Below, in pieces: positions 26,892 through 28,602 of a stretch of 33,074 nt of DNA. The notes beneath the pieces are model-generated. The model did no database searches, was not told where the DNA came from, and saw only the letters and a program-made list of their open reading frames with translations. The stretch is from Armatimonadota bacterium (GTDB taxonomy: Bacteria; Armatimonadota; Chthonomonadetes; Chthonomonadales; JAMCWF01): contig JAMCWF010000037.1 in assembly GCA_023481295.1 (NCBI GenBank), positions 1 to 33,074 on the forward strand, in the 5' to 3' direction. The translations under genes and the position numbers were made by a program. Each line of letters begins with the position of its first letter. Position 1 is the first letter of the stretch.

Positions 26892-27560
26892 TTATCCGCC
26901 GATGTGATGGATTGTGGAAGGCTTGTTCATCTTGGTGTTATGCTGCAGTGCACGAGGGCGAGGCGTGGTGCGGATGTGATCACCATTATTGGCGGTCAGC
27001 AACCGTCGCAGCATTTGCCGCCCGCGATGTATTCGCGAGCGAACGGTACCGATCGAGGTGCCCATCGCGTTGGCGATCTCTTCGTAAGACATTTGATCCA
27101 CATCACAGAAGAGAACCGCCAGCCGGAAGTCTTCCGGCAATGAGGCGAGCGCATTTTCAAGCGGCTCCGCCATGTGGGTGGTCAAAAAAGACTCTTCCGG
27201 ATTGGGTGTGGGATCGGGGATATCGAGCGCCACGCCATCTTCCTCGTTCGTTTCACTGACCGGCTGATCCAGCGAAACCACCTTTTGACGCGGGCGGCGC
27301 CGCAGGCCGTCAATGAACAGGTTCGACAAAATGCGGTAGAACCAGCTTTCGAACGGCATATCTCGATGATAGGTTTGAAACGACCGGTAGGCTCTCAGAT
27401 AAGCTTCCTGAAGCAGATCCTCGGCATCGTCCCGATTTCCGGTCATTCGATAGGCCATGTTGTAGGCTTTTCGTTTGGTGTTGGCTATAAGGCTCTCAAA
27501 CTCCTGTTGCAAAGCCGGAGTTGATGTATTAGCGTTTAATGCGATTTGCTGCACACTCAT
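26892..27560 (-). CDS. ECF-type RNA polymerase sigma factor
   Basis: 222 aa. Region 2 is NMAYRMTGNRDDAEDLLQEAYLRAY with the ensuing FESWFYRILSNLFIDGLRR; region 4 is LPEDFRLAVLFCDVDQMSYEEIANAMG and the recognition helix TSIGTVRSRIHRGR. It directs RNA polymerase to a specialised promoter set. GGAGGT lies 8 nt before the ATG. The C-terminal ~30 residues are a polar tail. No anti-sigma gene follows: the 135 bases downstream up to the smpB start are empty. Upstream, between it and the tetR gene, lies a site nearly identical to the one before tetR, so TetR probably controls it. Confidence 0.93.
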   Translation of the reverse strand: MSVQQIALNANTSTPALQQEFESLIANTKRKAYNMAYRMTGNRDDAEDLLQEAYLRAYRSFQTYHRDMPFESWFYRILSNLFIDGLRRRPRQKVVSLDQPVSETNEEDGVALDIPDPTPNPEESFLTTHMAEPLENALASLPEDFRLAVLFCDVDQMSYEEIANAMGTSIGTVRSRIHRGRQMLRRLLTANNGDHIRTTPRPRALQHNTKMNKPSTIHHIGG

Positions 27561-27615
27561 ATCGCTCTACCTCCTTCACTTGGCTCAAGTACATACAACC
27601 ATTAACGTATAAGTG

Positions 27616-27638
27616 CTAGGTAGTACCAGTCCGTCCTA
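27616..27638. promoter_or_regulatory. Predicted TetR operator 2 (upstream of sigma gene)
   Basis: The 23-bp sequence starts CTAGGTAGTAC and matches the site at 28373-28395 at 20 of 23 positions, with three changes to C that break its palindrome. It lies 56-78 bases upstream of the sigma ATG, close to the 82-104-base distance of the other site from the tetR ATG. A TTGCCA lies 20 bases upstream on the minus strand as a possible -35, but a good -10 is not seen. Confidence 0.65.
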
Positions 27639-27670
27639 TTTTCTTAGACGAGTGAACTGGCAAAAAGGTT

Positions 27671-28291
27671 TCATTGCGTCGGTAATTTATCGGATATCGC
27701 CAATGTCTCATTGGACAGTAGCTGCCGGAAGACCTTGGATACGCTCAGATAGGGGGACAGGCTCTTGCTGGTTTTGGTCAATACCAGCATCCCTTGCCAG
27801 GTTGCCAGCAGAAAGAGAGCGGTATCGTCCACCGGCAGGTCGTCCCGAAAATCTCCGGTACCCATCCCAGCCTGAAGGCATTGAGCCAGCTCGTCCTGCA
27901 GTTGCCGAAAGACGTCGGCGATGCGGCATCGGAACAGGTCATTATGCTCGCTCATCTCAACCGACAGGTTGCCGAACGGGCACCCCCCTTTGTTTAGGAC
28001 CTGAAGCTGTTCCTGCGCAATGTTATCGAAAAAGGCAGCCAGTCTCTCCTTCGGCGGCCGGCTGCCGTCCTTTAAGGTTTCACCCAACGAACGCGAAAAA
28101 TTGCAGAGTCTCTCTTCCAACACCGCAAGGCCCAGATGTTCTTTACTCTTATAATGGTAGTAAAAATTGCTTTTTGATACTCCGCTTGCGGAAAGTACCT
28201 CATCCAGGCTGGTCGCACGATAACCCTTGCGGTAGAAGAGATCGGTTGCCACTCTCAGGATTTTCTCTTTATTGCAGCAGCCATTTGCCAT
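27671..28291 (-). CDS. TetR/AcrR-family transcriptional repressor
   Basis: 206 aa from ATG 28291, which has GAGGTGA 5 nt upstream; the track start (28309) is 6 codons earlier. The N-terminal HTH domain reads KILRVATDLFYRKGYRATSLDEVLSASGVSKSNFYYHYKSK. The ligand domain contains GGCPFGNLSVEMSE, common in AcrR-like regulators that bind small ligands, and a Cys pair near the N-terminus (ANGCCNK). It probably represses itself and the ECF sigma gene downstream, since the same operator-like site precedes both. Inducer unknown. Confidence 0.92.
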   Translation of the reverse strand: MANGCCNKEKILRVATDLFYRKGYRATSLDEVLSASGVSKSNFYYHYKSKEHLGLAVLEERLCNFSRSLGETLKDGSRPPKERLAAFFDNIAQEQLQVLNKGGCPFGNLSVEMSEHNDLFRCRIADVFRQLQDELAQCLQAGMGTGDFRDDLPVDDTALFLLATWQGMLVLTKTSKSLSPYLSVSKVFRQLLSNETLAISDKLPTQ

Positions 28292-28372
28292 TCGACTCAC
28301 CTCGCCCATCTAGACTTTCAAGAAATAGGAAGTATACCGGCGTCGGGACCTCCATAACCGCGCTCCAAACGA

Positions 28373-28395
28373 CTAGGTAGTACTAGTACGTACTA
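28373..28395. promoter_or_regulatory. Predicted TetR operator 1 (upstream of tetR)
   Basis: It starts CTAGGTAGTAC and ends with the perfect 12-bp palindrome TAGTACGTACTA; the overlapping GTACTAGTAC is also perfect. It lies 4 bases downstream of the -10 box of a strong promoter facing tetR, so bound repressor would cover the transcription start. The related site is at 27616. Confidence 0.72.
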
Positions 28396-28399
28396 AATT

Positions 28400-28428
28400 A
28401 TTGTACCACCCATTTCAATATTTATCAA
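28400..28428 (-). promoter_or_regulatory. Sigma-70 promoter of tetR
   Basis: On the minus strand: TTGATA (28428-28423), exact 17-base spacer, TACAAT (28405-28400), one base off the -10 consensus. Transcription would start inside or at the edge of the operator. Confidence 0.65.
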
Positions 28429-28502: not shown

Positions 28503-28602
28503 GTCATTCCCGCGAAGGCGGGAATCCAGCCCCTTGCCTACCGGCAGGCAAGGATGCCAAAGCACTGGTGTCCAGGTTCCGTTTTGAGGCCTCGGAATGA
28601 CG
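28503..28602. repeat. REP-like palindromic intergenic element B
   Basis: The 100-bp unit starts GTCAT and ends ATGAC, with hairpins TTCCCGC-GAAG-GCGGGAA and GCCTACCGGCAGGC. It is the same type as the element at 17742. It lies in the 452-base stretch between the tetR promoter and the GH92 gene, which otherwise shows no convincing gene; the track ORF at 28491 is a shadow over it. Confidence 0.6.

Follow-up and report, generated by a model that had tools for sequence, protein, structure and literature searches.

ECF σ factors are mostly viewed as being held by an anti-σ factor and triggered from outside the membrane. Some are instead regulated through their transcription, without an anti-σ, namely SigE of S. 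coelicolor, under the CseBC two-component system, and HrpL, under HrpRS (PMC8999054). The same paper, citing the 2021 ECF reclassification, states that σ factors of the ECF203 group are possibly regulated by neighbouring TetR repressors. On the repressor side, the TetR family includes E. coli NemR (PDB 4YZE), AcuR and LmrA/YxaF, which share the TetR_C_13 domain. NemR-type repressors act at a dyad over their own promoter, and the targets of NemR, nemA and gloA, encode enzymes.

The locus described here, a tetR gene followed by an ECF σ gene, shares features with each of these systems. As with SigE and HrpL, control is apparently transcriptional and without an anti-σ; however, SigE and HrpL are switched on by activators (PMC8999054), whereas here a one-component repressor is predicted to act on an apparently self-activated σ promoter. 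ECF203 (Streptomyces SCD72908.1), as described in PMC8999054, is alike in having no anti-σ, a TetR gene conserved alongside and a proposed repression by TetR. There the regulation is a possibility raised from gene neighbourhood for an actinobacterial model protein, whereas the Armatimonadota loci show the operators and two promoter classes, and the operator is missing from genomes that lack TetR. Because of the ECF203 remark in that paper, the idea of a TetR-regulated ECF σ factor is itself not new. New here are the two operators, the self-type promoter, the absence of the operator where TetR is absent, and the status of the σ factor as an apparently anti-σ-free sister of an anti-σ-bound paralog, all in a different phylum. 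A literature search for TetR together with ECF in Armatimonadota returned no paper, and only the ECF203 remark was found.

The window, i.e., the whole analysed stretch of 33,074 nucleotides, carries the two genes in tandem on the minus strand, with tetR first and a gap of 110 bases between them. The tetR gene (27671..28309, minus strand) encodes a protein of 212 aa that is NemR/AcuR/LmrA-like by Pfam, NCBIfam and alignment. All Pfam scores exceed the curated cut-offs (TetR_C_13, 67.8 bits against 27; TetR_N, 50.2 against 24; TetR_C_13_2, 50.1 against 27), and with both domains present the regulator belongs to the TetR_C_13 or NemR-AcuR-LmrA branch of the TetR family. Its best NCBIfam match is AcuR, but the score of 105.9 bits lies below the equivalog cut-off of 247, so the protein is an AcuR relative only and not AcuR proper. 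The true start of tetR is likely Met7 (28291), judging from the ribosome site that precedes it, GAGGTGAG. The σ gene (26892..27560, minus strand) encodes a SigE/SigW-like protein of 222 aa, identified by the same three approaches. Specifically, this small protein consists of Sigma70_r2 and Sigma70_r4_2 only and scores 106.7 bits with TIGR02937 (cut-off 42.9), as is characteristic of an ECF σ factor.

On the other side of tetR, between it and a divergent GH92 gene, lies a dispersed element, TTCCCGCGAARGCGGGAATCCAG (window 28507-28529), for which the 1.23 Mb genome yields 64 matches when up to 3 mismatches are allowed, compared with 0 for the reversed control. The element falls in a stretch without alignment to the same-genus genome G001. 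The stretch TATCAATACAAATCAACC occurs upstream of the tetR promoter, and G001 has a second, partial copy of it (L033:5623-5665).

The pair is conserved within the order. The same-genus genome keeps the whole unit at 87% DNA identity, both operator sites included. A TetR ortholog is found in 20 of the 31 genomes of the order, and in all 20, which represent three families, an ECF σ gene lies directly downstream on the same strand. Outside the genus, identity to the window proteins is 30-44% for TetR and 59-68% for the σ factor. What flanks the pair varies with the family (SmpB in f1; TatD in f2; GNAT and a xylose-isomerase-like gene in f3), so that the unit of conservation is the tetR-σ pair itself. 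Elsewhere in the phylum, no σ gene adjoins the TetR relatives, which have about 30% identity (next best E about 1e-35).

Two predicted operators lie in the window, both on the minus strand. Operator 1, CTAGGTAGTACTAGTACGTACTA (28373..28395), is located 4 bp past the −10 element of the tetR promoter and contains the predicted transcription start. Operator 2, CTAGGTAGTACCAGTCCGTCCTA (27616..27638), is located 6 bp past the −10 element of the ECF-type promoter of the σ gene, and the predicted start coincides with its first bases. The two agree at 20 of 23 positions, as the sequence-only reading had noticed when it placed one 23-bp site before each gene. With 3 mismatches allowed, a joint pattern for both sites matches nowhere else in the window and gives 0 matches in 100 shuffles. 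Scanning the 1.23 Mb assembly for more copies also returned only the two sites of the pair, although a further copy could be missing, the assembly being 64.6% complete. A dispersed repeat was considered as an alternative origin of the sites and ruled out: scattered copies were looked for and not seen, with two copies in the genome and, beyond the pair, no excess over control in 12 genomes.

For the whole order, an iterated matrix was built from 37 sites (21.9 bits; approximately TAGKACGKACYRGTMCTAMCTA), which describes a 22-bp dyad centred on ACYRGT. Each locus was scored with a matrix trained without it and its close relatives, and its best site was compared with 60 shuffles. The site exceeds all 60 shuffles before tetR at 17 of 19 loci and before the σ gene at 18 of 20, so the pair and the site, both followed into related genomes, are retained together. 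A clear tetR site is absent at L014 and L015, the latter of which runs into a contig end, and a clear σ site is absent at L014 and L018. With a predicted operator at both promoters, the comparative evidence points to a TetR-controlled ECF σ factor. It likewise upholds the earlier proposal that a repressor governs the σ gene through operators at both genes, with binding and repression as predictions.

The earlier proposal of graded control fares worse. It held that the tetR copy is palindromic and that the σ copy has lost symmetry, and that the latter may bind more weakly and give graded control. Short palindromes that are perfect, GTACTAGTAC and TAGTACGTACTA, are indeed present in the tetR copy; measured around ACYRGT, the conserved centre of the dyad, however, its symmetry is 8/11, compared with 7/11 for the σ copy, and the tetR copy of the same-genus genome has no perfect palindromes. 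Across the order, mean symmetry over the 37 sites is 5.83 (tetR) and 5.89 (σ) of 11 pairs. In the window the order-wide matrix scores the σ site slightly higher than the tetR site (32.9 and 30.8, respectively). Because mean symmetry is equal and the window σ copy scores no lower, the idea of graded affinity is unsupported.

The two operators are associated with different promoter types. The tetR gene has a σ70-type promoter, TTGATA-N17-TACAAT, with an extended TG before the −10 element (28400..28428, minus strand); its distance of 4 bases to the tetR site was correctly read before. The sequence-only reading overlooked the ECF-type promoter of the σ gene, GAAAC-N17-CGTCTA (27645..27672, minus strand), the −35 element of which overlaps the tetR stop codon. 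Order-wide, TTGACA-N17-TATAAT-like promoters occur upstream of the tetR operators (mean 10.76, largest shuffled mean 8.68) and GMAAC-N16/17-CGTC upstream of the σ operators (mean 8.95, largest shuffled mean 6.76). The converse does not hold: as a group, tetR sites have no ECF-type promoter beyond shuffles (6.09 vs 6.09), and σ70-type promoters do not stand out upstream of σ sites across the order. Of 19 orthologous loci, 16 have an ECF-type promoter that scores at P<=0.01 relative to shuffles. The gap from the −10 element to the operator is 0-10 bp at most loci, and the σ site lies 30-40 bp downstream in some f2 genomes. Being just past the −10 element, the operator covers the predicted start at both promoters.

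The σ factor has a paralog in these genomes, 51-57% identical, which forms a canonical pair with a zinc-finger anti-σ. The paralog also has its own ECF-type promoter, GGAAC-N17/18-CGTAA, which is highly regular and present in 14 of 14 genomes examined (L195-L208), and an HxxxCxxC (zf-HC2) anti-σ gene adjoins it, providing a positive control for the anti-σ search. The TetR-linked σ factor has neither this promoter nor a linked anti-σ. Although zf-HC2 proteins are present in 5 of 5 genomes searched, the contig of the pair carries no zf-HC2 gene in G000, G001, G014 and G019, and in G003 the one present is 12 kb away. By neighbourhood inspection and the zf-HC2 model, no anti-σ gene adjoins the TetR-linked σ gene anywhere in the order; the locus is thus not a canonical ECF/anti-σ module, in agreement with the earlier remark that this σ factor has no visible anti-σ partner.

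Sister σ factors that each have their own conserved promoter type form the pattern expected of self-activation, which is an indication and not proof, and each σ factor probably drives its own gene. Alternatively, TetR could repress both genes while another ECF σ factor, e.g., the anti-σ-linked paralog, reads the promoter of the σ gene, giving a cascade without self-activation. ECF promoter specificities can overlap in general, and the genomes of the order do contain further ECF σ factors (40-57% identity). We nevertheless regard this arrangement as unlikely. The gene of the closest paralog has a distinct promoter in all 14 genomes, with GGAAC, a longer spacer and CGTAA, and the GAAAC/GACAC-CGTC-type promoter mostly stays with the TetR-linked σ factor even after TetR has been lost, since most TetR-less genomes retain GAAAC or GACAC-N16/17-CGTC/TGTC before the σ gene.

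The TetR-less genomes also bear on the role of the second site. Nine genomes of the order have the σ ortholog without TetR, and their best upstream operator score is 4.1, compared with at least 16 in the 18 positive loci. An operator before the σ gene is thus found in 18 of 20 genomes with TetR and in 0 of 9 without it (Fisher P about 5e-6, with relatedness ignored). It is well known that TetR repressors generally autoregulate and that neighbouring genes may be incidental, so TetR could act on its own gene only, with the second site a leftover of local duplication and the σ gene a passenger under its own promoter. This is improbable, as the second site holds a similar position relative to the ECF promoter in three families despite changed flanks and diverged intergenic sequence, and is missing where TetR is missing. 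Some TetR-family members activate, and TetR could be an activator at both promoters or at one of them with repression at the other, but this is the least probable reading, because both sites are placed past the −10 element, within the start region, a repressing position, and even the f2 σ sites 30-40 bp downstream are compatible with a roadblock. The nine σ orthologs without TetR or operator also lack an adjacent anti-σ (L069, L070, L073, L074, L077, L078, L082, L084 and L092). Because the σ factor persists in such f2 lineages, TetR is not its sole possible control.

Taken together, the comparison reveals a gene pair with two predicted operators, two promoter types, an operator that accompanies TetR only, and no linked anti-σ. 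Our preferred reading, which we hold to be probable, is that the NemR/AcuR-like TetR is a repressor of both its own gene and that of a self-activating ECF σ factor, the two genes forming an autonomous regulatory module. A TetR dimer, or a pair of dimers, would occupy the 22-bp operator over the start of its own σ70-type promoter, as NemR-type repressors do, and TetR would also bind the second copy over the start of the ECF-type promoter between the genes. The σ factor most likely recognises the latter promoter, which drives its own gene, and TetR would be the brake on the σ factor in place of an anti-σ. The tetR-σ gap has no terminator-like site on the genes' own strand, so read-through from tetR into the σ gene is possible. 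Once a signal frees TetR, such read-through from the tetR promoter would supply the first σ molecules, the self-driven ECF promoter would then amplify them, and autorepression and rebinding of TetR would shut the system off.

Residue C110 is invariant in 17 TetR orthologs and K179 is conserved in at least 90%, and both align gap-free with Cys106 and Lys175 of NemR (PDB 4YZE; chain numbering minus 2), residues between which a bond that senses HOCl has been reported (PMC7464077). Given this alignment, a redox or electrophile signal is a fair guess. TetR has the residues of a NemR-type Cys-Lys switch, and release from DNA through Cys110, with the near-invariant Lys179, would be the predicted response to oxidation or electrophiles; the wider family shares both residues, and they are no proof of redox sensing. 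We consider such a cysteine switch no less plausible than the small-ligand trigger suggested earlier.

With 2 mismatches allowed, the strict operator pattern matches 12 pair sites and 10 other sites in 12 genomes, compared with 24 matches of the reversed-pattern control; G020 has 3 matches and 0 in the control. As the non-pair matches are not above control, TetR has no apparent targets beyond the pair, and no larger TetR regulon was found with the strict motif in these 12 genomes. Apart from its own gene, TetR thus appears to target the σ gene only, unlike NemR with its enzyme targets. The σ promoter motif shows no excess over its reversed-pattern control in G001 (strict, 2 vs 8; relaxed, 41 vs 60). 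In 20 genomes, 10 of 26 strict matches are the σ gene itself, the other 16 compare with 15 in the control, and the genes downstream of these 16 have nothing in common. A GAAAC-N17-CGTC site upstream of an uncharacterised gene is kept in G000 and G001 (L110/L134); as a σ target it is a weak candidate, since the distance from its end to the ribosome site is too short to be convincing. It would be unusual for a σ factor to have next to no regulon, and this counts against our preferred model.

More tentatively, and with somewhat less than even confidence, the locus may represent a portable conserved module in which a cysteine-switch TetR has replaced the anti-σ on a self-activated ECF promoter, producing a one-component, switch-like cascade that responds to a cytoplasmic signal. 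Such a module would have arisen by duplication from an anti-σ-controlled σ factor, with diverged promoter specificity separating the two circuits. On comparative grounds, the locus is a clear example of an ECF σ factor under a cytoplasmic one-component repressor, and its operators and promoters can be seen in the sequence. Its operator and promoter pairs are defined and suited to testing in E. coli, and the module may serve as a natural orthogonal amplifier switch. For the σ family, the locus shows how a σ factor may change masters after duplication.
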